Shown one piece after another: positions 20,834 to 34,838 of a stretch of DNA of 64,000 nt. Both the position numbers and the translations under genes were made by a program. Where the stretch lies: the NCBI RefSeq assembly GCF_024506435.1, contig NZ_JANIET010000001.1, positions 620,001 to 684,000 on the forward strand, written 5' to 3'. How positions within the stretch are numbered: the first letter of the stretch is position 1; the number at the start of each line of letters is the position of its first letter. The DNA is from Pantoea trifolii (GTDB lineage: Bacteria; Pseudomonadota; Gammaproteobacteria; Enterobacterales; Enterobacteriaceae). Below the pieces are notes generated by a model. The model was not told where the DNA came from, made no database searches, and was given only the letters and a program-made list of their open reading frames with translations.

Positions 20834-20918
20834 GCCGAAGTGGCGAAATCGGTAGACGCAGTTGATTCAAAATCAACCGTAGAGATACGTGCCGGTTCGA
20901 GTCCGGCCTTCGGCACCA
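20834..20918 (+). tRNA. leuX: tRNA-Leu(CAA)
   Basis: 85-nt class II tRNA including encoded CCA. The acceptor GCCGAAG pairs with CTTCGGC, the anticodon arm GTTGA-TTCAAAA-TCAAC gives anticodon CAA, a long variable arm (CGTAGAGATACG) follows, and the T arm contains GTTCGAG. leuX is a known integration hot spot in enterobacteria, and here foreign DNA starts directly after its 3' end. The gene remains intact because the element reconstitutes the 3' segment. Confidence 0.97.
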
Positions 20919-21388
20919 TTTACACCTTTCTTAGGAAAATCAAGCAGATAGGAAACATACTCTATCTTTCTTGCCCCTAAAAATTGTCTTAACTCTTTCC
21001 CGTATAAAAGCCACTGCGTTTGTTAATGGCTTTGGTATGTTATCACGCTGTGGCAAGTAGTTACCAGGCTCAACCTTGTACTGCTGTTCCCTTTGAAGCC
21101 GGAAGATGTGCCAGCATCTCTAAACCTTATACCAAGACACGATTGATCACACGCATTTAAGCCCGATGTGCGGCCTTATGGCTGCGTAAACAGGTCTATG
21201 GTGGTATATGCCCCGGTAGCTACAGATCCGGCTCTACCAGCGTCTCAGCCACGCTCCTAACGGTACACGGTTATCCTGATAAGGTGTGGTCATTCTGGAC
21301 AATTGATGAAGTCGCTACGCTCCGCTTGTTGCCTTACCACCAACGGGGCTTTATGGCTGCTATTGTCTAAAAAATAGCTTTGATATTA
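20919..21388. other. gene-free left end of the island
   Basis: 470 bp between leuX and the first island gene. I see no convincing gene. A 7 bp inverted repeat, AAAGCCA...TGGCTTT (21007-21033), is the clearest structure. Integrase arm sites would be expected near here, but I cannot identify them. Confidence 0.5.
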
Positions 21389-21595
21389 TTATTCCTTGTT
21401 AGTCTTTTTTAAGAGCTTAAGGTGGTTGGCGATAGCCTTTGCGATCTCCTCCTTCATCTTTAAGCCCCTAGCGCCACACTCCGCTTTAAACGTCCTGTAT
21501 AGCTCTAAATCAATCTCAGCGCTGATCTTGAACAGCTTAGCCTTTGCTAATTCGTCTGCCGTAAGCGGGTGATAGTACTCTTTCTTCTGTGTCAC
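21389..21595 (-). CDS. ribbon-helix-helix protein (partition or repressor type)
   Basis: 68-aa basic protein. After a flexible N-terminus, LFKISAEIDLELYRTFKAECGARGLKMKEEIAKAIANHLK fits a ribbon-helix-helix DNA-binding fold: one strand and two helices, as in ParG/Arc-like proteins. The frame opens at a TTG at 21610, but GGAGGG covers that spot and lies correctly before a GTG at 21595, which is chosen. It could be a repressor or a partition centromere-binding protein. No ParA partner is present. A terminator at 21633-21657 separates it from the genes to its right. Confidence 0.7.
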   Translation of the reverse strand: MTQKKEYYHPLTADELAKAKLFKISAEIDLELYRTFKAECGARGLKMKEEIAKAIANHLKLLKKTNKE

Positions 21596-21632
21596 TGGCT
21601 TACCCTCCAAAGATGTTTAGAGATAAGGATAC

Positions 21633-21657
21633 AAAAAAGGCCAGCACGATGCCAGCC
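21633..21657 (-). terminator. intrinsic terminator of the envelope module
   Basis: On the minus strand GGCTGGC-ATCGT-GCTGGCC pairs over 7 bp with two G-T pairs and is followed by TTTTTT. It ends transcription coming from 22.8-21.7 kb before the ribbon-helix-helix gene. Confidence 0.6.
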
Positions 21658-21727
21658 CTCTAAAATGTATTGAAAACATTGTCTAAAAGCTTTCAATAAA
21701 AGCATTAATTCATTGAGTTTGGGCTTC

Positions 21728-21889
21728 TTAATCTCTTATGAGCATAATAAACGCGATGAACTGTACTACCAGGAGCACAGCGGCTATCCGCTTAGCCCAC
21801 ATATTCTTAGTCAACTGCGACAACCAAGACCGCAGCACAATGTTGCGATAGCTTCTTTTCCACTGTTTCCGAGCGCTGAGCATCTTCAT
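21728..21889 (-). CDS. small basic single-span membrane protein
   Basis: 53 aa from an ATG at 21889 preceded by AAGGA. The N-terminal half is basic (KQWKRSYRNIVLRSW) and the C-terminal half is a membrane span (RIAAVLLVVQFIAFIMLI). The 5' end overlaps the neighbouring secreted-protein gene by 83 bp in another frame. The nested arrangement recalls phage spanin pairs, but no lipobox is present, so that identity is not supported. Function unknown. Confidence 0.5.
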   Translation of the reverse strand: MKMLSARKQWKRSYRNIVLRSWLSQLTKNMWAKRIAAVLLVVQFIAFIMLIRD

Positions 21890-22028
21890 AAAAACATATC
21901 CTTTTGTTGTCGGTTTCAAACTCATCTACAAGCTGTAATGTCTTCTGCTGGTAGGCGTTGGCATCGATGGTGAACAACATTCCGACAAGGAATACCAACG
22001 CACAGCCTCTTACCTGGTGACTTTTCAT
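21807..22028 (-). CDS. small secreted cysteine-containing protein
   Basis: 73 aa with a signal peptide (VRGCALVFLVGMLFTIDANA) followed by a short mature part containing two cysteines (RICFYEDAQ and SQHCAAVLVV). I do not recognise a family. It is part of a minus-strand run with a Rap1a-like protein and a lipoprotein, all aimed at the periplasm, and its 3' end overlaps the small membrane-protein gene. Confidence 0.55.
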   Translation of the reverse strand: MKSHQVRGCALVFLVGMLFTIDANAYQQKTLQLVDEFETDNKRICFYEDAQRSETVEKKLSQHCAAVLVVAVD

Positions 22029-22095
22029 TATGCCAACCTTTATAGATCTAAAGATCTTATGGGTGGAGGGAAATCGTTAGATAACCCTGTTTATG

Positions 22096-22422
22096 TTACT
22101 TGCAACTGTATTCAAGCATAAGAATACGTCTGATCATCTCTGAGGCTGACAGGCTATATAATTCGCTATGTCGTATAATGGAATAAGCCGCAGTGTTAAC
22201 GATCTCCCCATTGGTAATCTTGTCAGGTAGGCAAAGCATTTGCGGCATATTTTCCAATGTACCTATAACATAACCGTAAAAATACCCATCATCCCAAGTA
22301 GGTGCAGATTGCGCTACCATCCCTTTAGCTACTTTTACGAGGTCAGAGGTGCTTATTGCAGAAGCTGGAGCACTTGCCAGAGACAGTGCAACCGCTGCAC
22401 CTGTAAATAAACGTTTAATCAC
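22096..22422 (-). CDS. Rap1a/Tai-like secreted immunity-type protein
   Basis: 108-aa precursor with a signal peptide (MIKRLFTGAAVALSLASAPASA). The mature part matches the Rap1a/Tai pattern: GYFYGYVIGTLENMPQMLCLPDKITNGEIVN, then a helix and a C-terminal MLEYSCK. Rap1a-type proteins in Serratia neutralise type VI amidase effectors in the periplasm, but homologues are also common in phages without a proven role. The GTG at 22422, preceded by AAGGAATGGGAA, is the start. It follows the lipoprotein gene by 12 bp, so the two are co-transcribed. Confidence 0.72.
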   Translation of the reverse strand: MIKRLFTGAAVALSLASAPASAISTSDLVKVAKGMVAQSAPTWDDGYFYGYVIGTLENMPQMLCLPDKITNGEIVNTAAYSIIRHSELYSLSASEMIRRILMLEYSCK

Positions 22423-22434
22423 TTCCCATTCCTT

Positions 22435-22809
22435 TTACTTACAGTGGTTCGCGCTGCCTACTGCATAGCCGCCGCTTTTCAGTTCGGATTTGATGTAATA
22501 AGCCATTGTCTGATCATTCTTCAATGGCTCTTTGTCCCACACTCGGAAGCGGTTCCCATTAGGCAACTTCACCCACTGATCGCCGTCTGAGAACGTCACC
22601 AGCATAACGGCGGGTAGCGTGGAATACGTCTTACCGTCATACGTAGCTACAAACCTACACACAGACACGTTAACGATCCGCACGGTAGACGCTGGAGCCT
22701 GCTCTACCGGAGCCGCTACAGGCGCTGGCACTTGCACATAACGAGTCACACAGCCAGAAAGCAACAGAGAACCAAAAACAGCCAAAGACGCAATAATCTT
22801 AACTTTCAT
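22435..22809 (-). CDS. small lipoprotein of the island
   Basis: 124-aa precursor with a lipobox LLLSGC at about residues 15-20 and a Pro/Ala-rich linker (VPAPVAAPVEQAPAS). The globular part contains CRFVATYDGKTYSTLPAVMLVTFSDGDQWVKLPNGNRFRVWD and a C-terminal cysteine. It is probably anchored in the envelope with the co-transcribed Rap1a-like protein. Phage-borne lipoproteins often alter surface receptors or exclude other phages, and that role is only inferred here. Confidence 0.65.
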   Translation of the reverse strand: MKVKIIASLAVFGSLLLSGCVTRYVQVPAPVAAPVEQAPASTVRIVNVSVCRFVATYDGKTYSTLPAVMLVTFSDGDQWVKLPNGNRFRVWDKEPLKNDQTMAYYIKSELKSGGYAVGSANHCK

Positions 22810-22954
22810 CTAATACCCTTTTCATTTCTAAGTTTATAGTTTGGTTTACTTTTACAATCAAAACAATAAGTAATGCAGTTATCATCCTCATTGTTGTTTG
22901 GAGGGTATCTCCAGATATTTCTAAAGTTATTGCAACTTCTCTTATGTAAACCCC

Positions 22955-23512
22955 TTAGATTTCAATGTGTGACACTGCAATGCCTGCACTTTTAGCACTT
23001 AGCTTTAGATAAGCTTTGGTACTCTGGAAGTTAGTGTGATTCAGAAGATCGCTAACCTGTGCTAAGTCTCTTGTCTTATCTAGCACCTGTGTAGCGCCAT
23101 ACTTGCGGAAGCTGTGAGCGCTGATTGTTCCTTCAATACCTAACTTTGTTGCCACCTTCTTGATCGACGTTGAGACGTATACGCGGCTTACTGGCGTATC
23201 CTTTTTGCAGCGGTTGCCCTTGCCAGCAAAGATAAACGTGTCTTTGGGGTAGGCCGCACGACGATTAGCCACCATAGCCAGGATTGAGGCTGGCAGGTTT
23301 TCAATCTCCTTTTTCTTCCCTGTCTTCTGCTCTACGATCTTCAACGTACCGCGCTCAAAGTCGCTGTAACGTAGGTTGATTGCATCTGACACACGGAGCA
23401 GACACACAGCCATAACACGGCACACATCAGCTACTAAATCGTTTCCTTGCTGTTCCAGTTCCTCAATGATTGCCTTTGTCTCGCTCACTTCTAAAATTGC
23501 TGCTGCTTTCAT
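22955..23512 (-). CDS. short tyrosine recombinase (catalytic domain only)
   Basis: 185-aa site-specific recombinase, close in size to fimbrial-type FimB/FimE enzymes and lacking an N-terminal core-binding domain. Active-site blocks are LLRVSDAINLRYSDF (Arg I), SAHSFRKYGAT (His-x-x-Arg), LLNHTNF (second His) and STKAYLKL (Tyr). A second, full-length integrase lies at the other end, so this one may resolve multimers, invert DNA or assist excision. It faces away from the long gene-free region. Confidence 0.85.
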   Translation of the reverse strand: MKAAAILEVSETKAIIEELEQQGNDLVADVCRVMAVCLLRVSDAINLRYSDFERGTLKIVEQKTGKKKEIENLPASILAMVANRRAAYPKDTFIFAGKGNRCKKDTPVSRVYVSTSIKKVATKLGIEGTISAHSFRKYGATQVLDKTRDLAQVSDLLNHTNFQSTKAYLKLSAKSAGIAVSHIEI

Positions 23513-23796
23513 TCTTATTTACTCCTGTGTTGATTTGATAAGTAGGAGGCTACATTGGCTTTAAATAGATGTAAAGATCTTTTTTTGGGTATGCGTATAA
23601 CGACAGCAATATCGTCTACACTCATTCACCCCCACGCCAGGGAGAAGGGAAGATAGCCGCACAAGGATGTGTAATTTATCAAGCGCACTTATTGAGTGCC
23701 GGAACGGATTTCAAAGGGGCGGGGGGATCTGACATTCCAAGCGCCGCAAATATCACTCACATTATTATTTCAATCGAAATTATTTTGTCGCAATAC

Positions 23797-23825
23797 TGCA
23801 TAAACACTGCATAAACCTTGCATAA
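23797..23825. repeat. three TGCATAA direct repeats at 11 bp spacing
   Basis: TGCATAA occurs at 23797, 23808 and 23819, in phase with one DNA turn. This is typical of iteron-like binding arrays for an initiator or repressor. Single copies recur at 24757, and the motif forms half of the palindromes at 28733 and 29174. Confidence 0.6.
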
Positions 23826-23894
23826 GTTGGTTAGTGAGGTAGGCCCATTGCACGTAACAAGCGGGAAGCCTTGCTATTGCTGGGTTTGTTGAGT

Positions 23895-23926
23895 CTAGTT
23901 AACACAATCTATATAAAGTTAACTAG
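23895..23926. promoter_or_regulatory. 9 bp inverted repeat, possible operator or recombination site
   Basis: CTAGTTAAC (23895-23903) and GTTAACTAG (23918-23926) are perfect inverted copies separated by 14 bp of A+T-rich DNA. The form suits a dimeric regulator or tyrosine recombinase core. Nothing in the sequence decides between these. Confidence 0.4.
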
Positions 23927-24337
23927 TGATTCAGCCCCGATCAGGGGCCACCACCTTGCACATAATAGTAACATACTGCGATTAATAGTGTCGTTATGAA
24001 ACTATCACGCTTTGGTCAGAAACCAGGCAAGAAATCACGCTTTTTTCAGCTTTACTTTTAAAGTTAAAAACTCGTTCAGCAAAAGCCACTATAAGTGCAT
24101 ATTGTGGGGCAAAGTACTTTCATTCTACTTTCAGACATTGAGCTTAAGCCTTGCTGTGTGCGGCTTGTAGTGCTGTTGTGTAATTATGTCAGATGTAAGG
24201 GGATCTGTGTGGGGCAAGGTATTGGGCAAGAGTAAGGCTTACATTGGGGCATATATAGACTGATTATCGACTAAATAACGAAAGAATATTAATCAAGGTG
24301 TTTTAGATGTGTTTTGCAGGTGTTTTAGGTGACTAAC

Positions 24338-24466
24338 CCCCCATCAGTCTGATACCCCCATCAGAATTATACCCCTACCCCCATCAATCTGATACCCCAC
24401 CCCCATCAAATCAATACCCAATAAGAATAACTATAATAATAAACATAAGAATATATCTTTTATATG
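24338..24466. other. putative replication origin: iterons plus A+T-rich tract
   Basis: Four related direct repeats of the form CCCCATCA..(TGA)TACCC start near 24339, 24356, 24379 and 24401, at 17-23 bp spacing. They are followed at once by ~45 bp of almost only A and T (24420-24466). Iterons beside an unwinding-prone tract are the classic layout of plasmid and satellite origins. A winged-helix initiator candidate is encoded 1.1 kb downstream (25584). I see no clear DnaA box. Confidence 0.5.
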
Positions 24467-25164
24467 TTCTTTAGGCGGTTATCCCGCCTAATGATCTTAC
24501 GCTGCCGCGTACCAGGTCAACTAATGGGCCTGCGGTTGTTACCGTTGGCTGTTTGTTCTATCTGTTCAGCTACCCGCTGAAATACTTCCTGATCATCTAC
24601 TACGTGCAATGCCTACGGCAATAGCGAAGCTATGCCAGTATGGGTAAGAACCTGTCACGCTACGCTACCACGTTCAAACCTGCCCTAACTCCAACCTTCA
24701 ACAAACAACAAACTAAAGTTTGTATGTCTGTCTTAGTCTGGTGAGTGCAGGCTCTTTGCATAAGTGTATGTGCTGCCCGTAGGGTGGAGAGTCTCCACAG
24801 CACAAGATCTTATAGAGGAAAGTTTCTTGAAATTATCAAAAGGGGCTTTAGATAAATTAGGGAAACTTTTATAAGTTCAGAAATATTATCTAAAGGTGCT
24901 TTCTAATAATAAAAATGAACTTTTCACTACGTGAAGCCGGAAAACAAACCTGTTTAAGTGTTGCATCTTCCTGTGTGGCTTCACTGGAGCGATTCTAAGC
25001 CCACCTGAGAGGCTTCCTAATACGTTTCCTCATCTTTGCTGTTACAGAGGCTTAGAGAGCGTTACAGGAGGTGTTAAGATGGTAAGATAATTACATAAAG
25101 TGCTTGCACTCAGAAGCTAAGTTGTGCTATATTACCTCACTTGAAAAAATATTAAATAAATCTA

Positions 25165-25193
25165 TTGACAATGTACCTTTATTAGGATACAAT
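25165..25193 (+). promoter_or_regulatory. near-consensus promoter of the small-gene operon
   Basis: -35 TTGACA (25165-25170), 17 bp spacer, -10 TACAAT (25188-25193). Transcripts would start near 25200 and meet a terminator hairpin after about 55 nt, so productive transcription probably needs read-through or antitermination. Confidence 0.75.
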
Positions 25194-25226
25194 GGAGATA
25201 TAGACCAAAGAAACTGTTTTACAATG

Positions 25227-25257
25227 CACTGCCAGCTAAGTAGCTGGGCGGTGTTTT
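25227..25257 (+). terminator. leader terminator or attenuator before the small-gene operon
   Basis: CACTGCCAGCT-AAGT-AGCTGGGCGGTG forms a stem of about 11 pairs with one bulge and one G-T pair, followed by TTTTCCTGTTT. It lies between the promoter at 25165 and the first gene at 25308. It could alternatively mark the 3' end of a ~57-nt small RNA. Confidence 0.6.
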
Positions 25258-25307
25258 CCTGTTTCTAAATTGACACTAACACTAACTACACAAGGAGCAT
25301 CTGACCA

Positions 25308-25529
25308 ATGCCAACACGACTACCACAGGGCGGCAAGCCTAGAAAATACATCGACAGCAATCACGTATTCATTCTTATTGCTAACGCGAAAGATCCAGAT
25401 GCAGAGGCAAAGAAAATTCTCAACACTGCTAAGGTTGCTAATCAGCGTGGAAATACAGACTATGCAAAAATGTTACGTCACGGTGTAAACCTTTATCGCG
25501 CTAAAAAGCTCGTAGAAGCTAACGCATAA
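25308..25529 (+). CDS. island hypothetical protein, 73 aa, basic
   Basis: First gene of the plus-strand operon, with AAGGAG ten bases before the ATG. The product is small and basic (LPQGGKPRKYIDSN..., LNTAKVANQRGNTDYAKMLRHGVNLYRAKKLVEAN), mostly helical in its C-terminal half. No family is recognised; a nucleic-acid-binding role would fit the charge. An overlapping frame from 25270 has no ribosome site. Confidence 0.65.
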   Translation: MPTRLPQGGKPRKYIDSNHVFILIANAKDPDAEAKKILNTAKVANQRGNTDYAKMLRHGVNLYRAKKLVEANA

Positions 25530-25583
25530 TAAAGGGAGGGGCTAGCGCAATGAGGAGAGCTATCACCCACAAGGAAAAACACA

Positions 25584-26186
25584 ATGACAAGTACCGGATT
25601 TTTAATGATGCCTAATAACATTATGGCGATCAAAGAAGTAACCCATAACGGGAAGCAGCACAAACTAACGTTTCAAACTAAAGGCGTTTATTGTTACCTG
25701 TCATCACTATCTGATTCTTTCGAAATGGTTCGCCCGTCGATGCAGGGGATCGCAGATTGGTTAGGACTGACTGACGAACAGGCCGCACGTAGAGAGGTCA
25801 AGAAGCTGGCAGATGCCGGACTGATTGAGATCATTTCACGCCCTGGAACATCCAACGCTTTTATAGTGAAGCCGTTCCCTGTAGAGCAGCCAGAAACGCA
25901 ACAGGAAGTCACACAGCAGCCTGAAACAGTGCAGGACGTACAAACGCCAGCGCCAGCATTAGAAGCCGTTACAGAGAAACACAGCGATTGTGATGATGAC
26001 ATTATCCCCGAACTGATGCACGGTTATAGCGCCCCTGTAAGATCTTTACATCTAGGAGAAACTGTAACGCCGCTTCGCACTACAGCCGCAGAAAATGACG
26101 CATTAGAAGACGCGAAACGCCGCGTAGCAAACAATAAAACACCGCTTATCACACCCCCACATAAAGAGGATGACGAGCCATTTTAA
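25584..26186 (+). CDS. winged-helix replication-initiator-like protein
   Basis: 200 aa. Residues ~5-90 form a winged helix: GFLMMPNNIMAIKEV, FQTKGVYCYLSSLSDSFEMVRPSMQGIADWLGLTDEQAARREVKKLADAGLIEII. This is the pattern of HTH_36/RepA-like N-terminal domains found in plasmid and phage replication proteins. The rest is a long Gln/Pro/Glu-rich linker and a C-terminal acidic tail ending in DDEPF, similar to the DDxPF tail that binds host single-strand binding protein partners. It is downstream of the iteron region, which makes it the best initiator candidate. Confidence 0.65.
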   Translation: MTSTGFLMMPNNIMAIKEVTHNGKQHKLTFQTKGVYCYLSSLSDSFEMVRPSMQGIADWLGLTDEQAARREVKKLADAGLIEIISRPGTSNAFIVKPFPVEQPETQQEVTQQPETVQDVQTPAPALEAVTEKHSDCDDDIIPELMHGYSAPVRSLHLGETVTPLRTTAAENDALEDAKRRVANNKTPLITPPHKEDDEPF

Positions 26187-26204
26187 ATAAAAGGAATAAC
26201 AACA

Positions 26205-26504
26205 ATGATTTTAAGAAATGATAAGAAAGAAGAATATTTGATTCTTGCACCTAAGCAGGCCGAACTATTCCGCTTTATGGTAGAACAAACTGAACGTGCA
26301 AGATCATTAGAGAATGCTCTAGGGTATTTTGAGTTTACTATTAAAGACTACCTAGAAACACACAAAGGCACACAATCATATTTGTATAATGTCTTAAGCA
26401 AGCTAAAAGCCTTTGGTGCTATCCAGCATATTCCACGCGGTGCTTTACCTTCATATGTAAAAGTTAACCAGGGATTCACTTTGATTGAGGTATCAGAATG
26501 CTAA
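26205..26504 (+). CDS. island hypothetical protein, wHTH-like, 99 aa
   Basis: 99-aa product preceded by AAAGGA. The segment YFEFTIKDYLETHKGTQSYLYNVLSKLKAFGAIQHIPRGALPSYVKVN could form a winged helix, suggesting a regulator or replication accessory factor. I do not recognise a family. Its stop overlaps the next start by 7 bp, so the two are translationally coupled. Confidence 0.6.
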   Translation: MILRNDKKEEYLILAPKQAELFRFMVEQTERARSLENALGYFEFTIKDYLETHKGTQSYLYNVLSKLKAFGAIQHIPRGALPSYVKVNQGFTLIEVSEC

Positions 26505-26713
26505 CAACCGACAGACAGCTTTTTATCAGATATAACGAAGACAAGCACGAACAACACTTTATTCAGTATGCAGAAGAGTTAGGAGAAGACTTAGATCAAT
26601 GTGAATTGTTCTTTGATCATACCCCCGACAAAGTGCGAACCATTTTGAAGACACCTAATCACGGTAACTTTCTATTGGAGACTCTAATCAATGACAGCAA
26701 GAGAAGCAATTAA
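26498..26713 (+). CDS. island hypothetical protein, 71 aa
   Basis: Small acidic protein (FIRYNEDKHEQHFIQYAEELGEDLDQCELFFDHTPDKV...) of unknown family. It overlaps the preceding gene by 7 bp and the next by 23 bp. Its gene position, not its sequence, supports it. Confidence 0.55.
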   Translation: MLTTDRQLFIRYNEDKHEQHFIQYAEELGEDLDQCELFFDHTPDKVRTILKTPNHGNFLLETLINDSKRSN

Positions 26714-26873
26714 CTTGCATTATAAGTATTTGAGAGAAGACCTGAAAGGGACAGAAGAATACACAAACGACTTTTACAGAAGAAGTAATAAGAAAGGCAA
26801 TAAACTTTTCACCTTCTTTGTAAACGTAGAAACACAGAACTCTTATTACTATTGGACAGATTTAAATGACTAA
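26691..26873 (+). CDS. island hypothetical protein, 60 aa
   Basis: 60-aa product rich in Tyr, Asn and Lys (INLHYKYLREDLKGTEEYTND...SYYYWTDLND). No family recognised. Start and stop overlap both neighbours (23 and 8 bp), consistent with coupled translation in the operon. Confidence 0.5.
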   Translation: MTAREAINLHYKYLREDLKGTEEYTNDFYRRSNKKGNKLFTFFVNVETQNSYYYWTDLND

Positions 26874-27132
26874 CAAAGAACAGCATTACGATTGCTTACT
26901 AGCAGCTTTAGAAATGAAACGCATCAAAGAATCAGGAAACCACGGAACATATGAGAGTGCATTGTTTGGATTTGCTCTTAAGTATTCTGACTTATTCAAG
27001 AACGTTAGCAGTGATAGCAAGTTTGATTATGATCGCCTTATGCTTCTGAAAGAGCTAAGCAACATTCTACCGGATTATTTCGTAAACTTATTTGATGATA
27101 ATGGAGAGGTACACGCACATTATGTTAGTTGA
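26866..27132 (+). CDS. island hypothetical protein, 88 aa
   Basis: Helical 88-aa protein (HYDCLLAALEMKRIKESG..., LMLLKELSNILPDYFVNLFDDNGEVHAHYVS). No family recognised. It overlaps the preceding gene by 8 bp and the next by 11 bp. Confidence 0.55.
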   Translation: MTNKEQHYDCLLAALEMKRIKESGNHGTYESALFGFALKYSDLFKNVSSDSKFDYDRLMLLKELSNILPDYFVNLFDDNGEVHAHYVS

Positions 27133-27625
27133 TACACAGTTATTAGGATTTGTACGCCGTGCCATCTATGCAGATGCAACTAAGATTTCAGATGAGCAAC
27201 TATTAGAAATCATCAACCAATACTTTGAGAGTATCGGGAAACAGAATAACAAACGCTGCTTGATTCTATTCAACTCTATCTTATCTGCCCTTCAATACCT
27301 CGCTAACGTTTATAACATCGAACTAGCAGCCTCTACAGGAGGCGCTACAGAGCGAACGGAGAGAGTCGGACAGGTAGAATTAACAGCGAAGTATAACGAT
27401 AAAAACTTATACGCTGATAACCCCTGGCAGCGCCTTTATGATGCGTACTTTTACGGACGCACTCAGGTGATTGGTTGTCCTGTTCAAGCGAAAGCAACAG
27501 ATAACGTGCTAATCGGCGGCGTAGACCGTAGCGAGATCCACCGCGTGAAAGATAATTGCAACAGCGTAGATGGATTACAGGGACTTTATAATAAAAAGAG
27601 ACATTGGGATCTAAGACGTGTTTAA
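27122..27625 (+). CDS. island hypothetical protein, 167 aa
   Basis: The ATG at 27122 is chosen because GGAGAGG precedes it; an in-frame ATG at 27092 lies before that site. The N-terminal half is helical (LLGFVRRAIYADATKISDEQLLEIINQYFESIG), and the C-terminal half contains NPWQRLYDAYFYGRTQVIGCPVQAKATDN and ends YNKKRHWDLRRV. It is the second largest product of the operon and I do not recognise it. A packaging-interference or structural role is conceivable but unsupported. Confidence 0.6.
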   Translation: MLVDTQLLGFVRRAIYADATKISDEQLLEIINQYFESIGKQNNKRCLILFNSILSALQYLANVYNIELAASTGGATERTERVGQVELTAKYNDKNLYADNPWQRLYDAYFYGRTQVIGCPVQAKATDNVLIGGVDRSEIHRVKDNCNSVDGLQGLYNKKRHWDLRRV

Positions 27626-27995
27626 TAAATTTCGTACAGATAAAGTCCCTACTAAAGCAGAAACAACACTAGATGTTAACGTGATGAGGGCGAAGCAGAG
27701 ACGCAGGGTAAAAGGGGAAGATAAGAAAAGTTTACCCTCAGGATATGCACTGGTAACTATTGAAGAAGATAGCAAACCTCTTTCACAGGAAGAATATAAA
27801 GCCGTCTCTGATATTACATCTGTGAAAGGTGTTTATTATAAACCCCGCAAGACTAAAACAACAAAGCCTAACGGAATCAAACCGCACAAATGGGAAGCTT
27901 TGGGCTTTCCTAGTGCAGAAGATTACGAAGGTTGGTTGATGTTCAACTATAGACAGATTACAGAAGAGGAAATGTTAGATGACAAGATGCACTAA
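27618..27995 (+). CDS. island hypothetical protein, 125 aa, basic N-terminus
   Basis: 125 aa with a basic N-terminal half (VMRAKQRRRVKGEDKKSLPSG, YKPRKTKTTKPNGIKPHKWEALGFPSAEDYEGWLMFNYR) and an acidic tail. This charge split suggests nucleic-acid contact. No family recognised. It overlaps the preceding gene by 8 bp and the next by 17 bp. Confidence 0.55.
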   Translation: MFNKFRTDKVPTKAETTLDVNVMRAKQRRRVKGEDKKSLPSGYALVTIEEDSKPLSQEEYKAVSDITSVKGVYYKPRKTKTTKPNGIKPHKWEALGFPSAEDYEGWLMFNYRQITEEEMLDDKMH

Positions 27996-28344
27996 GAAAC
28001 CAAAAATGATCGACAGTGGAAAGATGAATAGCCTAGCCGCAAGACTTCAAACCCTAATAGAAAAAGACTTTCCCGACCTTGATAAAAAGTTGGAGAAGTT
28101 ACTGTTTACTTTTCCTGTTTTGGAAGGTGAGGAGCTAGAGAAAACAACGGGAGAGGTTCAGGATCTAGATATCTACATCGGGAAAGAATACGACGACATT
28201 ATACTAACTGCAAACGTCTGGCTTCAATCAGGAGAAATAACAGATCTGCAAAGTGACCATTTGAACTTAGTAGCTAATGACTTTTTAGCTGCTAGACAAG
28301 ATATTATTTTCAAGTACGGATTTGACCAACAGGAAACACAATAA
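27979..28344 (+). CDS. island hypothetical protein, 121 aa, acidic
   Basis: 121-aa protein, basic only at its N-terminus, otherwise acidic and helical (LIEKDFPDLDKKLEKLLFTFPVLEGEELE...). GAGGAA lies just before the start inside the previous gene. The stop shares one base with the next start. No family recognised. Confidence 0.55.
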   Translation: MTRCTKKPKMIDSGKMNSLAARLQTLIEKDFPDLDKKLEKLLFTFPVLEGEELEKTTGEVQDLDIYIGKEYDDIILTANVWLQSGEITDLQSDHLNLVANDFLAARQDIIFKYGFDQQETQ

Positions 28345-28727
28345 TGAATGCACGTATTTTACCAGAACAGAAACAATCAGGCGCTTACACTTACTTTGTA
28401 TCACTGGTTAATGACTTTGAAGACACCCACTATAAGCCAGTGATTGAAGCCTCTCTAAACTTCTCAACCCTACAGAGTGCAGAAGCATTGCAGGTAGTGA
28501 AAGCAGCCCTAGAAACCGCCTCCAAGCGTCTTAAAGCGTTGATTGACTTCGTAGCCGTCACAGCAGACAGCAAAGACTTTAGAATGTCTCTGGATGAGGT
28601 TAAGAGCCTACAGGCAATGCTACAAGACCAAGTAGATTGGCTGGGGTCTGAGGCGATGATTGTAGATGACGAGATTCACCAACAGATCGAACTAGCCGCC
28701 TTTGTGGTAGCAGAAGAAGCTAATTAA
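28344..28727 (+). CDS. island hypothetical protein, 127 aa
   Basis: Last gene of the operon. The 127-aa product is helical and acidic (YTYFVSLVNDFEDTHYKPVIEASLNF..., ALQVVKAALETASKRLKALIDFV...). No family recognised. It is followed directly by the palindrome and promoter of the capsid operon. Confidence 0.55.
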   Translation: MNARILPEQKQSGAYTYFVSLVNDFEDTHYKPVIEASLNFSTLQSAEALQVVKAALETASKRLKALIDFVAVTADSKDFRMSLDEVKSLQAMLQDQVDWLGSEAMIVDDEIHQQIELAAFVVAEEAN

Positions 28728-28730
28728 CAT

Positions 28731-28786
28731 TTTGCATAAAATAATATGCAAAAAAGGTTGACAAAGATCTTAAGATGTAGTATTAT
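28731..28786 (+). promoter_or_regulatory. capsid operon promoter with palindromic operator
   Basis: The inverted repeat TTTGCATA-AAATAA-TATGCAAA (28731-28752) lies just before a perfect -35 TTGACA (28758-28763), 17 bp spacer and -10 TATTAT (28781-28786). The 18 bp core TGCATAAAATAATATGCA recurs exactly at 29174-29191. The site could bind an activator touching RNA polymerase or a repressor. The spacer also contains AAGATCTT. Confidence 0.7.
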
Positions 28787-28850
28787 TAAAGGTGAGGGGA
28801 ATACTAATCTCCTTCCTCTTACTTCAAGCACTTACGGCTACGAAGTTGAT

Positions 28851-28894
28851 AGACCGCGACTCGCTGATCCCGCCTGCGCGGTCTGTCTTTTCCT
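28851..28894 (+). terminator. leader terminator of the capsid operon
   Basis: AGACCGCG (28851-28858) pairs with CGCGGTCT (28877-28884) and is followed by GTCTTTTCC. It lies about 65 nt after the expected transcription start, so the capsid operon also begins with a terminator. Confidence 0.6.
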
Positions 28895-29213
28895 TTTAGT
28901 ATTCTTTCAAAAACTTATCATTGGGTTTTCTGACATAACATCCTTATTATGTTTTTTCCTACTTTCCTAGAAGTAGGTTTTTTAAAGAATATTACTATTC
29001 TACCTCATTAGCTTATTAAGCGTTCGCTAATAGTGTTGAGAAGCACTTAAAATTAAGAAACAGTTAGAGCCTGAGAGCCTCTAAATGTAGCTTATTAGAT
29101 ATCCTTTTAAATATGCAAAAGTATCCCCGATGACGGTTGTTAGATTCCCGAGGGGGCTTTTTTTATATCTGTCTGCATAAAATAATATGCATCCCTTCAA
29201 GGTATAAAATCAA
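28895..29213. other. gene-free leader of the capsid operon with a second terminator-like site and operator copy
   Basis: 319 bp before the first capsid-operon gene. It contains a short C/G hairpin with a T7 tract (CCCGAGGGGGC then TTTTTTT, 29147-29164), a TATGCA half-site at 29112, and the second exact copy of the 18 bp palindrome at 29174-29191, which ends 22 bp before the first gene. A 74-codon frame starting at 28746 begins upstream of the promoter and is not credited. Confidence 0.55.
29174..29191. repeat. second exact copy of TGCATAAAATAATATGCA
   Basis: Identical to 28733-28750. It lies after the second terminator-like structure and just upstream of the first capsid-operon gene. Two identical sites about 440 bp apart suit looping by a repressor or two-site activation. 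Confidence 0.7.
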
Positions 29214-29540
29214 ATGGTATTACTTAACGCGCCAGACGCGCAACAACGCATTCTTAAATCTTGTAATGTTACAGGATTTACTAAGTCTGATTTAGAGTTT
29301 ATTGCAAAACACTCTAACTCAACTGCAATAGAAGTTAAAAAGGCTTCTGAACTTCTGACAGGTGAAAAAGTTCCCGTAACTTTATTTGTCGATGACCTGG
29401 AAGAAGCAAACAATATTGTTATTCAAGCACGAAAATCAAAACTTGAAGCAACAATCATCAAAGCAGATACAGCTAAGCCTAAACCATCATTACAAGATTT
29501 AGTGAATGGCATTAAAAGTAACGCAGTATCTAAAAAATAA
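29214..29540 (+). CDS. first protein of the capsid operon, unknown
   Basis: 108 aa. The N-terminus GFTKSDLEFIAKHSNSTAIEVKKASELLTG is helical, followed by VPVTLFVDDLEEANNIVIQARKSKLEATIIKADTAKPKPS, a small alpha/beta unit, and a Lys-rich C-terminus. No family recognised. Its place directly before decoration and capsid proteins suggests a structural or assembly role such as scaffold, but I cannot show this. Confidence 0.55.
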   Translation: MVLLNAPDAQQRILKSCNVTGFTKSDLEFIAKHSNSTAIEVKKASELLTGEKVPVTLFVDDLEEANNIVIQARKSKLEATIIKADTAKPKPSLQDLVNGIKSNAVSKK

Positions 29541-29561
29541 AAACTTAAGGAAAATAATATA

Positions 29562-29936
29562 ATGGCTCGTTTCGGTCGTATTTTTCAAAGCGTGGACTTT
29601 CGTCACGCAGTAGTAGCTTATTCAGGTGATGGAATCCTACAGGATCGCAAACTTGAACTTTCAGCCCCACTAACCAGCGATTTGGTAGTCGGAAGTGTTA
29701 TTGATGCAAGCGGAGCACTGATTCCAGATCTGTCTACTCCTATTGCTGGCGTCCTGGTAGAACCTGCAAACGCTGGAGATATTTTCGTTGTTATTGCATC
29801 TAAAGAACACACCATTCTGAAAGATCAAGCGCTGGTATTCAGTGAAAATGCTAATCGTGATGCAATTATCGCAGCAATGGCTAGTGATAAATATCGCTTT
29901 GCGTCTTGGGCTGAATTCGCTCTACCAACTACCTAA
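29562..29936 (+). CDS. lambda gpD-like head decoration protein
   Basis: 124-aa beta-rich protein with an AAGGA ribosome site. The pattern VSAPLTSDL..VGSVIDASG..., PIAGVLVEPANAGDIFVVIASKEHTILKDQALVFSENANRDAIIAAMAS matches trimeric capsid-stabilising decoration proteins. It lies 18 bp before the major capsid gene, the same order as D-E in lambda. The assignment rests on pattern and context. Confidence 0.68.
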   Translation: MARFGRIFQSVDFRHAVVAYSGDGILQDRKLELSAPLTSDLVVGSVIDASGALIPDLSTPIAGVLVEPANAGDIFVVIASKEHTILKDQALVFSENANRDAIIAAMASDKYRFASWAEFALPTT

Positions 29937-29954
29937 TAACAAGGAAATATAAAA

Positions 29955-31010
29955 ATGGATCTACGTGAAATCTTTGGCAGTAATGTTTCTATTGCAAACA
30001 CTTTCGAAGTGCCAAACACACAAAATACCGTCTTCCTGAATAGTAACCTATTCCAGACTCAGCGCCACGCAAGCAACGAAATTCTGATCGAACGTCAGGA
30101 AGCAGACGGCGTTAATTTTATCAGTACTGAGACAATGCCTTTTGCTCAGAGTGATTGGAACTCTGCACCATCTAAAAAATGGCAGGCTTACAACTATCAA
30201 CTGATTCACTCAGCAATCACTAATGATGTTAGTAGTAAGGATCTGGAAACTCAGCTTCGTTTCGGTATCTTTGACCGTACTGATCAGGCTGTAGCTCAAC
30301 TGGAAGCCTATTCTAACCGTCAGCTAGTTATGGCAACTAACTTTGTTGAAGACAAGCTAGCAGAAGCTGTTATGAGTGGTGTAGCTCGTTCTACCTATGC
30401 AGGGCAGAAGGATCTAGACTTCTTCACAGAGTTTGAGCAAGAGCGCACCAACTTTACTCTGAATGTAGATGATACTTTCGGCGTGGATATTTTCGAACAA
30501 CTGGACGACATTAGCCGCATTATGGGTACTAAGCTTTTAGGGCTGGAAACCTATCGTGAATCTATGATCGTACTGTGTGCCGGTAAAGCGGCTAAAGCCT
30601 TTAAGCGTCACAAGTCTATTAAAGACTTCGTACAGTTTACTATGGCGTTTAACAACGATGCTAACCCACTAACCCAGATTGCACCTAACCTGAACAAGGC
30701 CCGTAAATGGGAACTGAATGGTGTTGTTTTCCTGGACGTTGGCGGCTTGCCTCAGTATGAAAAATACCTGAGTAGCAAAGATAGCTTTGTTGCTGTTCCT
30801 CGCCTGATTGGTGCATCGCTGTTTGATCTGCACGTAGGGCAGGCTGTACGCCATATGGAGAGCCACGCGCTTAACGATAATGGTATCGGTAGCTATCTGA
30901 CATACGATCAGCGCTGGGGCTTCCCTGGTGTGCATACTGAGGTTAGCATTCTGCCTGTTGTACAGCAGCCGCAAGCAATCGTCTATGGTAACGTTATCGG
31001 CGACATTTAA
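29955..31010 (+). CDS. lambda gpE-like major capsid protein
   Basis: 351 aa, close to lambda gpE (341 aa). Family-type features: an extended N-terminal arm (EVPNTQNTVFLNSNLFQTQ), I.IERQ region EILIERQEADGVNF, the helix with KDLETQLRFGIFDRTDQAVAQLEAYSNRQLVMATNFVEDKLAEAV, DIFEQLDDISRIMGTKLLG..RESMIVLCAGKAAKAFKRH, and a C-terminal DQRWGFPGVHTEVSILPVV. It should form the shell. It has no protease or delta-domain gene nearby. A strong terminator follows. Confidence 0.78.
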   Translation: MDLREIFGSNVSIANTFEVPNTQNTVFLNSNLFQTQRHASNEILIERQEADGVNFISTETMPFAQSDWNSAPSKKWQAYNYQLIHSAITNDVSSKDLETQLRFGIFDRTDQAVAQLEAYSNRQLVMATNFVEDKLAEAVMSGVARSTYAGQKDLDFFTEFEQERTNFTLNVDDTFGVDIFEQLDDISRIMGTKLLGLETYRESMIVLCAGKAAKAFKRHKSIKDFVQFTMAFNNDANPLTQIAPNLNKARKWELNGVVFLDVGGLPQYEKYLSSKDSFVAVPRLIGASLFDLHVGQAVRHMESHALNDNGIGSYLTYDQRWGFPGVHTEVSILPVVQQPQAIVYGNVIGDI

Positions 31011-31037
31011 GATCTTAAGAGTTTAAGATTCTTTTTA

Positions 31038-31068
31038 AGGGGCGGGGCTTATAGCCTTGCCCTTTTTT
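31038..31068 (+). terminator. intrinsic terminator after the major capsid gene
   Basis: GGGCGGGGC-TTATA-GCCTTGCCC (9 pairs, two G-T) followed by TTTTTT. It is preceded by the perfect palindrome TTAAGATCTTAA (31007-31018). It probably lowers expression of the downstream genes relative to the capsid gene. Confidence 0.75.
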
Positions 31069-31089
31069 ATTATCTATAGGGGTATAGAA

Positions 31090-31281
31090 ATGCAAATGAT
31101 TTTAAAGAGTGCCGGAACACTTATTGAAGTGGATTTAAGCAAGCACGAAAACGCTATTAACGTTAGCTGGATGTGCAGACTCTTAGATGTGAATTACAGC
31201 ACTTTAAAAAGTTACATCAACCGAGACGGTTTATCGCTGGATGCAGCATTAAAGAAAGCTGTAGCAAACAGCAAGAGTTAA
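31090..31281 (+). CDS. small HTH-like protein, 63 aa
   Basis: The ATG at 31090, preceded by AGGGGT, is chosen over an open start at 31057 that lies inside the terminator. NVSWMCRLLDVNYSTLKSYINRDGLSLDAALKKAVAN has a helix-turn-helix look, similar to small phage DNA-binding proteins. It lies between the capsid and tape-measure-like genes and is possibly a regulator or a virion-associated DNA-binding protein. Confidence 0.55.
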   Translation: MQMILKSAGTLIEVDLSKHENAINVSWMCRLLDVNYSTLKSYINRDGLSLDAALKKAVANSKS

Positions 31282-31313
31282 CTAGGATTAAATATTAGAG
31301 AGGTAATGTTAGG

Positions 31314-33215
31314 ATGAATGTACAGAAGCTAACTAACGTCGTAGATTTTAAAGTTGATAAGCGTTCATTCAATGACGCAAAGAAATCTATTGAGCAGTTA
31401 AAGAAGTATTCAGAATCAGTAAAGGTGCGATCAGCGCCAGCTAAGAAGTTTAACGATAACCAGAAAAAAGCGGAGCAGGCATTAGCCCGAGTTAAAGCAG
31501 AGAATGCGCGTAAGGAACTCACAGCACAGCGCGAAGCAGCCCGAGCACAGAAGCAGGCAGACAGAGACGCGCTTGCAGGTGCCAGACGTAAAGAACAGGC
31601 AGACATTAAACGCCGCTCAGCACTGTTACAGCTTAATGGCATTACAGGCCGTACAGCAGAAGAAGAGCACAAAGTAAGCCGTGCTATTCACCAACAAACC
31701 CGCGAACTTGAACACGGACGCCAGAGCGTTGCACGTACCAACTTAGAGATCAGAGAACAGATCACCCTGTTACGCCGTGCGGCCAGAGAAAGGCATAAAG
31801 CGGAAGGCGGGGGCGCTGGCGGTGCTGGACACGGATCACACGGTGGAGGATTTGCCGCTGGGGTTGCAGGGGGAGCCGCTAGAGATTTCGTTAAGAAAGG
31901 TAGCCTTTCAGAGGGTCTATTAGGGGGCCTGGGGGCCGCTGGAGTGGGTGCAATCGGTGTAGGTGCTCTAGGGCTAGGGCTTGAGAAAGCGATCAGCGTG
32001 GTAAGCGATACAGCGCGAGAAAACAGGGAAGTAATCAACACAGCTAAATCTCTGGGAATCAACTCTAACAGCTTGCTTGCTATGACTCAGGCACAGAAAG
32101 CCGCTGGCTTCATTGGTGCCAACAATGAGAAATCAGGAGATCAGATTAAAGATACCCGAGAAAAGATCGGTGACTTCCTGAACAATGCCAGCGTGAACAA
32201 GAAAGGCGAGTTTACAGGCGGCGGCGCTGTGGGCGACATTGCCAACCAATTTGGCTGGGACAAAGACACAATCGCCAGCTTTAGCAAGAATCCTTTAGAT
32301 TTCATTCAGGCTACAGTGAATGCAGGACAGCAAAAAGGGCTATCAGACGGCGAGATCTCCAACCTGATCGAGAGCCTGGGCGACCAGCTAACCTACCTGC
32401 TACCCGCGCTTAAGAATAACGGGCAAGGGCTGATTGATACCGTTAAGCAGTTGACATATGCAGGCGCAAACCTGACAGATACAACGATTGCCAACAACGA
32501 TAAAGCCACACAGTTTACTACTGCATTAGAGTTAGGATCTGATGGGCTTAAAAACGAGTTTAGCAACGGTGTGTTAGATGCAGTTGGAAGCAGTGAACAA
32601 CTTACAGAAGCCTTGCACAACTTGCTTCCTGCTGCTGAATGGATGGGCCAGCAAGTAGGAGATTTCATTACTCAGCTTGGGAACCTCGTTAAGAGCATCA
32701 AAGAGACCAAAGAGAGCATTTCTAACCTCTTCCATCGTAACGAAGTGACGCCGGAGCAGAAGAAAGACGTGCAAGACGCACTCTCTATGAAGCCTGCACC
32801 TGTTAACCCTAACACTGGTATTGCCGGAGCCGATGCAGCCGCTACAGCTAACGCTAATGCGTCTGGTGATGCACTCTGGAACTGGATTAAAGGCTTTAGC
32901 AGTAGATCGCAGGAAGCAGCACAAAGCACATCGAATATGTTCGCACCTGTCCTGGGTGAAAAGCCTAACCAGCTTGATAGCAGCGCACAGCAGATGATCA
33001 ATGCATACAGTCCTAACGGTGCAATGTCTCAGGCTGTAGGCTATCCGAAGCCAGCCCCTGTGATCGTTAACATTCCTGACATTATCGTAAGAAGTGAAAC
33101 AGGCGTTAATGATAGCGAGTTTAGACGTGTTATTAACACTAACGTTACTGCACTGTTTGAGGAAGGCCAGCAACGCACTACGCAGGCTCTACAGTCTTCT
33201 TATGCAGGATGGTGA
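31314..33215 (+). CDS. 633-aa tape-measure or ejection-like protein
   Basis: Largest island product. Residues ~1-160 are a long charged coiled coil (KKFNDNQKKAEQALARVKAENARKELTAQREAARAQKQADRDALAG...). Residues ~165-225 are a Gly/Ala-rich membrane-active segment (GGGAGGAGHGSHGGGFAAG..., LLGGLGAAGVGAIGVGALGLG). The rest is mixed helical with SLGINSNSLLAMTQAQKAAGF, and ends FEEGQQRTTQALQSSYAGW. This composition is usual for tape-measure or internal ejection proteins. No tail genes accompany it, so an internal virion or DNA-ejection protein is as likely as a tape measure. Confidence 0.6.
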   Translation: MNVQKLTNVVDFKVDKRSFNDAKKSIEQLKKYSESVKVRSAPAKKFNDNQKKAEQALARVKAENARKELTAQREAARAQKQADRDALAGARRKEQADIKRRSALLQLNGITGRTAEEEHKVSRAIHQQTRELEHGRQSVARTNLEIREQITLLRRAARERHKAEGGGAGGAGHGSHGGGFAAGVAGGAARDFVKKGSLSEGLLGGLGAAGVGAIGVGALGLGLEKAISVVSDTARENREVINTAKSLGINSNSLLAMTQAQKAAGFIGANNEKSGDQIKDTREKIGDFLNNASVNKKGEFTGGGAVGDIANQFGWDKDTIASFSKNPLDFIQATVNAGQQKGLSDGEISNLIESLGDQLTYLLPALKNNGQGLIDTVKQLTYAGANLTDTTIANNDKATQFTTALELGSDGLKNEFSNGVLDAVGSSEQLTEALHNLLPAAEWMGQQVGDFITQLGNLVKSIKETKESISNLFHRNEVTPEQKKDVQDALSMKPAPVNPNTGIAGADAAATANANASGDALWNWIKGFSSRSQEAAQSTSNMFAPVLGEKPNQLDSSAQQMINAYSPNGAMSQAVGYPKPAPVIVNIPDIIVRSETGVNDSEFRRVINTNVTALFEEGQQRTTQALQSSYAGW

Positions 33216-33218
33216 TCG

Positions 33219-33377
33219 ATGTTTCAACGTAACAAGAAAGAAGAGCCAGAGAGTAAGCTGGCTTTTGCCTGGTGCATTATCGCTGTGCTGTTTGTCTGGT
33301 ATGAATCAACATTGCCAGCAAGCCAACAGCTTTCAATAGCGGATATCTTCAAGGTGTTAGCAGCAGTATTTCTATGA
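33219..33377 (+). CDS. 52-aa single-span membrane protein
   Basis: The short frame starts 3 bp after the 633-aa gene. After a charged N-terminus (MFQRNKKEEPESK), one membrane span follows (LAFAWCIIAVLFVWY), then a short tail with SIADIFKVLAAVFL. It could be a holin-like or virion membrane protein. Function unknown. Confidence 0.5.
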   Translation: MFQRNKKEEPESKLAFAWCIIAVLFVWYESTLPASQQLSIADIFKVLAAVFL

Positions 33378-33429
33378 ATAAGGCTAAGGCGCAGAACGTT
33401 CTTCTTATGCTCTCGCGCCTCTGAATCTA

Positions 33430-34659
33430 TCAGTTATTGCTTGATTTTATTTCGAAAGCGACTTTCTCAATATATTCTGATAACTCAGCAGGCGAAGCGG
33501 AGTTTTTCGAATATGTTTTAAAACTTTCCGTATTGCCGCGCTCGTGTCCTGCAAGCAAAGCGATACGGTCTTCTGGTATTTTTTCTCTATCCAACTGGCT
33601 TATAAACATACCCCTTAACGAATGGAAAACTTTATATTCATTTCCATTTTCTCCCAAAGCCTTACGCTTAGCCCTGGTAAATCGTTGTGTGTGCCACGTA
33701 GAGCGCTTGCCGTCTGCACGGTCTGTGATTGATGCACGGTAGAAAAGGAAGCCGTCATAAGGCTTCTGTTGCAACGTAATAACGAGATCCTTTAACTGAC
33801 TATGCACAGGGACAATCCTTGCTGCTGATTTCGTTTTCCCCTCCTTGATTTCAAAACACAATACACCCTCGACTGTCTTAATACTTTCTGATTTCAGTGA
33901 ACAGATCTCATTGAGTCGCATCCCGCTATACATCCCAATTAATGTAACAGCTTGCATCTCTTCGTCACCTTCCAATGCTGAAAATACTTTTGCTAACTCT
34001 GACACTGTGAACGGTTGGTAACTCACCTTACTGCTTTTTGCCTCCAAAGCGTGACCACGCCACGGGTTATCCTGTGGTGCATCGTGATACCGGTTCCTAG
34101 CCAGATCCCAAATCTGAGCAAGGGAGCTGATGTAGTTTTGTATTGTCTGTGCGGCCTTATCTTCCTTAAGGCTGTCTATCCAAGCGGTTACTGTTGTTCT
34201 GTTTACATCCTTCAACTTCACATCACGTTTTTTCAGGTGCAATAACAGCACTTCAACCGCTTTATTGGTTTTTGATAGGGTGGTGAGTTTTCTCTTCTCA
34301 CTGAATTTCAAAATGTAGATGTCACGCATCATAAGTAGGGTGGGGACACCGCCAGATTGCACACTACTGAATTGCGGCATCGGCATTTCAAATGCACTTG
34401 TACTGGCTGATTTTAGCTCTTCAATAGCCTTCTCAATCTTGCTGGCTTCTTTAGGTTTTACCTGCTCCCGTAAACGTGCCCATTCAACGGCTATGGCGTC
34501 TCTGAATAGCCTTGCTTGCCTTATGTCACTTGTTCCTGTGCTCTTTACAAAATAGCGCTTCTGTTCGAACAGATGGCGCATATATGCAGGGATAGTGATC
34601 CTTACATAGTAGTTTCCGCATAAATCTAAAACGAGATAACGATCTTTCTTGACCTGCAT
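33430..34659 (-). CDS. full-length tyrosine integrase of the island
   Basis: 409-aa phage-type integrase. The N-terminal region (LDLCGNYYVRITIPAYMRHLFEQKRYFVKSTGTSDIRQARLFRDAI) resembles the short DUF6538-like arm found in many integrases. The catalytic part shows GMYSGMRLNEICSLK (Arg I), HSLRGMFISQL (His-x-x-Arg), LLAGHERGNTESFKTYSK (His and Tyr). It lies 55 bp from the degenerate tRNA copy at the right border, the normal position for the enzyme that recombined the element into leuX. Confidence 0.92.
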   Translation of the reverse strand: MQVKKDRYLVLDLCGNYYVRITIPAYMRHLFEQKRYFVKSTGTSDIRQARLFRDAIAVEWARLREQVKPKEASKIEKAIEELKSASTSAFEMPMPQFSSVQSGGVPTLLMMRDIYILKFSEKRKLTTLSKTNKAVEVLLLHLKKRDVKLKDVNRTTVTAWIDSLKEDKAAQTIQNYISSLAQIWDLARNRYHDAPQDNPWRGHALEAKSSKVSYQPFTVSELAKVFSALEGDEEMQAVTLIGMYSGMRLNEICSLKSESIKTVEGVLCFEIKEGKTKSAARIVPVHSQLKDLVITLQQKPYDGFLFYRASITDRADGKRSTWHTQRFTRAKRKALGENGNEYKVFHSLRGMFISQLDREKIPEDRIALLAGHERGNTESFKTYSKNSASPAELSEYIEKVAFEIKSSNN

Positions 34660-34714
34660 ATAAACCCCGGTTATTTTGCAGGGGCTTTTACACGGTAGAA
34701 TTGCTTGTGTAGAT

Positions 34715-34821
34715 TGTCGAAGTGGCGAAATTGTAGCTGTTGTTTCAATAGCTTAGATCAGCTTGCTGGATAAGCGACCACCGCCGCGAGGCGTGCCGGT
34801 TCGATTCCGGCCTTCGCACCA
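34715..34821 (+). pseudogene. degenerate tRNA-Leu-like copy and right attachment site
   Basis: The 5' part (GTCGAAGTGGCGAAATTG) and 3' part (GTGCCGGTTCGATTCCGGCC, then TTCGCACCA) match leuX with a few changes: one T-loop substitution, a lost G in the acceptor 3' strand, and a substitution in the acceptor 5' strand. The middle is longer and unrelated, with no proper anticodon arm. It cannot be a normal tRNA. The 3' segment serves as the right direct repeat (attR-like), and the extra 5' similarity suggests the element's attP carries a whole tRNA-like module. Confidence 0.75.
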
Positions 34822-34838
34822 TCGATTGATGCAAAATT

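Follow-up and report, generated by a model that had tools for sequence, protein, structure and literature searches.

The closest described relatives of the element reported here are the phage satellites predicted in Escherichia coli in 2023 (PMC10448857), 224 in number. As the available text of that paper presents them, they carry genes for a head decoration protein (Dec), a major capsid protein (MCP), a tape-measure protein (TMP), an integrase and a modular RepA-like initiator, together with a tRNA attachment site, and have no terminase, protease or head-tail adaptors. The same text reports a match between satellite initiators and nucleases of the phages Inny, Muut and Mt1B1_P17, which were named odn homologs after ICP1 Odn (PMC8263062, available text). 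We found no experiments on this satellite family in the open-access literature. Capsid-forming phage-inducible chromosomal islands (cfPICIs) also encode their own capsid and, according to the available part of PMC10448857, have terminase, prohead protease, head-tail adaptors, alpA and Pri-Rep. For PLE11, one of the PICI-like elements (PLE) of Vibrio cholerae, the available text of PMC12987554 shows that the satellite TMP enters chimeric tails and that the particles keep the phage capsid.

Here we describe a 13.9-kb island in a stretch of 64,000 nucleotides from Pantoea trifolii (contig NZ_JANIET010000001.1, positions 620,001 to 684,000; hereafter the window, in whose numbering unlabelled coordinates are given). 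The island is probably a phage satellite of lytic myophages that would supply its own shell and tail ruler and borrow the rest of the particle. This reading draws on features read from sequence: the ends, a conserved gene set that is under purifying selection in relatives, homologs of phage parts and a link between the initiator and anti-satellite nucleases. Judged against the available text of PMC10448857, it is most likely a divergent new member of the family already predicted in E. coli; what is added here is a wider host range, an origin resembling that of Muut-type satellites, and two-headed nucleases with a second satellite Rep domain.

The island has the traits that mark the E. coli targets of Odn, namely attachment sites at a tRNA, Dec with MCP, TMP, and an initiator domain homologous to an Odn-like nuclease, and shares with those satellites the integrase and the absence of terminase, protease and head-tail adaptors. 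It differs in that its MCP falls in a deep separate clade, its site is tRNA-Leu(CAA), a short tyrosine recombinase stands where E. coli copies have a serine recombinase, and the predicted baseplate component (a baseplate or Dit-like gene in the representatives described in the seen part of PMC10448857) is missing. With PLE, as the available texts of PMC12987554 and PMC8263062 describe it, the putative satellite would share dependence on a large lytic myophage, a TMP of its own, and an iteron origin plus an initiator with a DNA-binding domain that a phage nuclease has copied; PLE11 virions hold ICP1 capsid proteins, whereas the window carries MCP and Dec genes of its own. A capsid of its own is likewise what the island has in common with cfPICIs, but none of the cfPICI genes listed above were found in it. 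The first-pass annotation of this DNA had taken cfPICIs as the closest published concept, a place that now belongs to the E. coli satellites.

Insertion site and ends

The island is AT-richer than its surroundings and is flanked by tRNA-Leu(CAA) and an imperfect repeat, about 32 bp long, of the tRNA 3' end.

20834..20918, plus strand: tRNA-Leu (anticodon CAA), found with ARAGORN, with the left attachment core in its 3' end (about 20888-20919)
about 34792..34823, plus strand: right attachment core, an imperfect copy of the tRNA-Leu 3' end, from repeat search and flank comparison

Five same-genus genomes, fetched on a flank match out of 60 searched, were used for comparison of the site. In all five, the left flank, matching up to 20919, and the right flank, matching from 34792-34794, share about 30 bases within an intact tRNA-Leu gene, and the island is therefore a precise insertion. 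The right flank continues well beyond the junction in two of these genomes (L050 and L051) and gives way to other DNA within 80-100 bases in the remaining three. No full prophage was seen at the tRNA-Leu site in the five relatives. Before the right attachment core, positions 34715-34731 resemble the 5' part of tRNA-Leu, as if a degenerate copy of the tRNA were present.

Capsid and tape-measure operon

The late operon encodes, in order on the plus strand, a 108-aa protein, Dec, MCP, a 64-aa protein of helix-turn-helix (HTH) type and a 633-aa tape measure, and is faced by a convergent integrase.

28733..28750 and 29174..29191, no strand assigned: identical copies of an 18-bp near-palindrome, bracketing the junction of the early and capsid operons
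28758..28786, plus strand: sigma-70-like promoter upstream of the capsid operon, 11/12 matches
29214..29540, plus strand: 108-aa protein before Dec, with sequence relatives in L009 and L030
29562..29936, plus strand: head decoration-like protein (Dec), Pfam HDPD E 0.027, far below the cut-off of that model
29955..31010, plus strand: major capsid protein (MCP), phrog_29 E 1.7e-5, Phage_cap_E E 2.8e-4
31037..31065, plus strand: terminator-like 13-pair stem between the MCP and tape-measure genes, from a sequence scan
31087..31281, plus strand: 64-aa HTH-like small protein, with relatives at the same position in several family members
31314..33215, plus strand: tape-measure protein (TMP), 633 aa, phrog_16051 E 1.1e-45
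33219..33377, plus strand: 52-aa protein, by open reading frame (ORF) position at the place of the Dit-like gene of E. coli copies
33430..34659, minus strand: tyrosine integrase, 409 aa, from PHROGs, Pfam and relatives

The capsid protein already named in the first-pass annotation is borne out by these matches and by profile comparison: the Phage_cap_E score is 20.5 bits against a cut-off of 22.9, and the MCP family profile finds capsid proteins of solved structure (9zbi_A, E 5e-12; Phi92_gp124, E 1.6e-9; phi92-like phages are Justusliebigvirus in the literature text available). The D-like identity of Dec is a weaker assignment, suggested by its position, the weak HDPD match and the distant relative L015, whose Dec matches phrog_2680 at E 1.8e-4. 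The 633-aa protein, earlier described as tape-measure or ejection-like, appears by its sequence matches to be a tail ruler of tape-measure type and not an ejection protein, no mark of the latter having been found in it; it is 98% identical to a Pantoea ananatis protein, a match by which the host would probably be Pantoea or Erwinia. The 108-aa protein is a possible scaffold, judging by position alone; compared with the phage head protein of corresponding position it gave no match. The stem at 31037..31065 may put MCP in excess. The 18-bp palindrome was considered as a signal shared with the helper; its pattern is missing from the 11 other loci scanned, phage included, and it is therefore not a family-wide signal.

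The profile scans took in twenty island products for both PHROGs and Pfam (E<=1) and a further two for PHROGs (E<=0.1), a set made up of products other than small or antisense ORFs such as 28746-28970. Among these 22 (PHROGs) and 20 (Pfam) products there was no credible match to terminase, portal, protease, connector, tail tube or sheath, or endolysin, and neither alpA nor Pri-Rep was found; the window also showed no recognisable tail assembly chaperone. The earlier picture of a tRNA-Leu island that holds capsid genes and no packaging, portal or endolysin family is confirmed by the ends, the plus-strand operon and the profile scans.

Likely helper phages and proposed life cycle

Homology suggests that the likely helpers are Stephanstirmvirinae-like lytic myophages. 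The window TMP matches 263 phage records, and the best 20 of these are mostly Phapecoctavirus-like. The Dit-like protein of the E. coli copies shares 52% identity with the product of the gene directly after TMP in Stephanstirmvirinae. The MCP profile matches the MCP of phage tuntematon with an hhalign probability of 96.4%, at about 15% identity in the profile alignment, and the tape measure is 602-633 aa long in main-branch satellites against 662 in tuntematon. The satellites thus appear to hold parallel versions of four helper parts, namely Dec (by position), MCP, TMP and, in some members, Dit; nothing of the remaining helper virion set was recognised in them. The first-pass annotation had looked to resident prophages for help. 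The genome itself has one Terminase_6N match, at C1:3623564, outside the window; because homology points to lytic myophages, a resident-prophage helper was set aside.

In the mechanism we propose, the satellite would reside integrated in tRNA-Leu and, on infection by a Stephanstirmvirinae-like lytic myophage, would be excised by its integrase, possibly with the short recombinase. It would then replicate from the iteron origin with its own initiator and express Dec, MCP and TMP from its own genes. These parts would be assembled onto the portal, terminase, connectors, tail tube, sheath and baseplate of the helper, which would yield chimeric particles in which the satellite provides the shell and sets the tail length. 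For the window copy, we infer excision, induction, packaging, incorporation of the capsid and TMP proteins and the identity of the helper. If this is true, a phage's portal and terminase have to fit a shell built from an MCP that is only about 15% identical to the helper's own, and the specificity of head assembly becomes directly testable. Both the E. coli relatives and their presumed helpers can be grown in the laboratory.

Initiators and two-headed phage nucleases

A search of 50,697 phage records with the window initiator gave six matches, five of them to Odn-like nucleases of Muut, Mt1B1_P17 and BI-EHEC and the sixth to a Geobacillus phage (E 7e-4). Identity to the first domain of the Muut nuclease is 38% over 105 aa, against 89-99% between initiator and nuclease in the E. 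coli copies; in the E. coli satellite L019, residues 1-105 of the initiator share 99% identity with the first domain of the Mt1B1_P17 protein, which ends in a GIY-YIG-type nuclease domain. The iterons of the window are like those of L057, a satellite with a Muut-type initiator, and satellites with other initiator types have other iterons.

24338..24420, plus strand: four iterons of CCCCCATCA-N-TCTGATAC type, likely replication origin; the repeats are like those of L057 at 7206-7340
25584..26186, plus strand: replication initiator, a winged-HTH protein with phage O-like relatives in PHROGs and Pfam
L023:4042-5028: Odn-like nuclease with second winged-HTH domain
L024:2535 on: Odn-like nuclease with second winged-HTH domain
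L025:2575-3573: Odn-like nuclease with second winged-HTH domain
L026:2733-3836: Odn-like nuclease with second winged-HTH domain

According to the available text of PMC10448857, no homology to the cognate satellite repA can be detected in the second RepA_N domain of any of the nucleases. In the four phage nucleases compared (those of Inny, Muut, Mt1B1_P17 and BI-EHEC, the last unannotated in its record), this winged-HTH domain shares 88-90% identity over 93 aa with the initiator of a different satellite type, L020. Since the second domain matches an L020-type initiator, the two-headed nucleases may target two satellite types. DNA of the second domain is present in 223 of 5426 E. coli genomes; of two such places that were opened, L056 is a complete-looking satellite and L055 an island without capsid genes. 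The tandem domains suggest that phages gather specificities against satellites in the way of spacers, which is a sharper statement than the published single-domain match. A broader proposition, which we consider about evenly balanced between right and wrong, is that the satellites replace the helper capsid instead of remodelling it, with a shell and ruler of their own set on the portal, terminase, connectors, tail and baseplate of the helper, and that the class spans Enterobacterales under two-headed nucleases (four phages) with tandem satellite-derived origin-binding domains, each for a different replicon type.

Relatives, distribution and selection

The capsid and tape-measure module has relatives in Kluyvera, Kosakonia, Raoultella, Citrobacter, Enterobacter, Klebsiella and E. 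coli. Among 295 family genomes, 8 gave MCP homologs with this module, four of them weak, and five named GTDB contigs carry the module (Kosakonia, Kluyvera, Raoultella, Enterobacter, Citrobacter). A DNA search with Dec/MCP matched 242 of 5426 E. coli genomes, 226 of them over at least 80% of the query; annotation was read for some of the 242, and alleles as divergent as the MCP of L056 and L057 would escape this count. The single-sequence MCP scan of viral_contigs gave no confirmed match, and the profile scan gave nine loci. In a 50-seed scan of 18 loci, Dec, MCP and TMP stand together in 14, the window included, and the helper seeds (terminase, portal, neck, sheath, tube, chaperone, hub) matched in none of the 18 at E 1e-4.

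The order Dec-MCP-(small gene)-TMP with a convergent integrase recurs across several genera, also at other tRNAs, with some variation. In the Enterobacter locus L031 a Dit-like gene lies among the early genes and the integrase is found at the opposite end, the Citrobacter contig stops before any integrase, and L009 (Klebsiella) and L030 (Raoultella) have no recognised small gene between MCP and TMP. The Dit-like gene is present in E. coli L019-L021 and missing in L009 and L030. A second, more distant branch (L015, L016, L017, with weak matches also in L018 and L059) has Dec and MCP, and in two of the three loci a tape measure of 700-721 aa lies upstream of MCP, before Dec. The Klebsiella satellite also encodes a 263-aa anti-repressor-like protein (L009:13037-13828; phrog_5817, E 6.3e-9).

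In the MCP tree, the window protein groups with full support with three proteins (P0017-P0019, one from Erwinia aphidicola) at 58-65% identity, and this clade is deeply separated from the main enterobacterial set, to which identity is about 27-37%. In the E. coli loci L056 and L057, MCP (L056:12813-13841 and L057:11778-12806) is about 18% identical to the MCP of L019 and 22-24% identical to phage MCP. Being nearer to phage than to L019, these proteins suggest that E. coli satellites swap capsid modules. Selection among relatives is purifying: 13 gene pairs (MCP, TMP, Dec and Dit), all drawn from relatives of the window copy, give dN/dS values of 0.03-0.23.

Alternative explanations

Several observations weigh against a satellite with its own shell and a Stephanstirmvirinae-like helper. 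Among the 50,697 phage records no phage of Pantoea or Erwinia with such a nuclease was found, and a tblastn search of the same records with the window MCP gave no match at E 0.01. Vibrio phages account for 94 of the 263 TMP-matching records, and TMP similarity alone is therefore not helper-specific. Matches to the window MCP are rare in its own genus (2 of 61 genomes, one being the window itself), and the window has no Dit-like or baseplate gene. The lambda D-like call for Dec is suggested by position, HDPD and L015, and profile comparison with the decoration protein of tuntematon gave no match (probability 1.7%). L015 encodes a 115-aa protein with a short match to phrog_2970, a helper head-region family, so that the boundary between own and borrowed parts varies.

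The island might instead serve interference, its capsid and tape-measure proteins being decoys that poison helper assembly and protect the cell, with no infectious satellite particles. Structural proteins that have diverged from their helper homologs could enter particles under assembly and abort them, PLEs likewise block their phage (PMC12987554, available text), and the island has Rap1a-like and lipoprotein cargo; an integrase with attachment sites, an origin with its initiator, and occurrence in several genera and integration sites nevertheless point to a mobile replicon. We regard interference as an unlikely sole role, and the two roles can coexist. That the island is the deleted remnant of a full prophage is very improbable: capsid and tail genes without the rest of a phage, and weak prophage-like MCP homologs elsewhere, would fit decay, but the same reduced gene set recurs in many genera under purifying selection, the five relatives have no prophage at the site, and MCP relatives from the protein search are of the satellite kind wherever gene context was seen. 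The doubt cast on a random remnant in the first-pass annotation is well founded in this recurrence and in the low dN/dS among relatives. We give equally little credence to a cfPICI-like satellite that packages itself with an unrecognised terminase. Several early-operon products do match nothing; all island products without assignment are, however, 60-168 aa long, too small for a large terminase or portal, which makes a hidden one unlikely, and no terminase or portal match appeared at E<=1 in PHROGs or Pfam. The proposal that the element supplies a shell and borrows more than a cfPICI does is supported by the absence of a distant terminase or portal from these scans and of a full prophage from the site in the five relatives, and a phage satellite with its own shell and ruler is the reading we retain.

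Early operon, recombinase and possible cargo

The remaining features of the island lie to the left of the capsid operon.

21389..21610, minus strand: 73-aa protein, no credible family in PHROGs or Pfam
21807..22028, minus strand: 73-aa phage-type protein, phrog_4641 E 9.5e-10
22096..22422, minus strand: 108-aa Rap1a-like protein, possible immunity cargo, PF18602 E 3.6e-7, above its cut-off
22435..22809, minus strand: 124-aa lipoprotein-like product, possible cargo, weak spanin matches
22955..23512, minus strand: short tyrosine recombinase, 185 aa, from PHROGs and Pfam; E. coli relatives have the serine recombinase at the corresponding place
25165..25193, plus strand: sigma-70-like promoter before the replication operon, 11/12 matches
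26205..28727, plus strand: early operon of small proteins, with starts at 26205, 26498, 26691, 26866, about 27119, 27618, 27979 and 28344
27618..27995, plus strand: 125-aa protein, present in most family members examined

Among the early-operon genes tested in relatives, 27618-27995 is the sole one that recurs widely. The two best promoter-like sites (11/12) precede the two operons, early/replication and capsid; sigma-70-like sites in the region number 18 against 16.2 +- 4.8 in shuffles, that is, not above shuffles. The 124-aa lipoprotein matches Rz1-like spanin models at E 0.016 and 0.24 and Pfam LysC at E 0.059, all weak. Nine island products compared with PADLOC for defence genes gave one weak match (E 0.0091) and no stretch passing. 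Outside the island, 37615-40857 encodes a 1080-aa helicase-like protein whose best PADLOC match is MkoC (E 1.7e-70).

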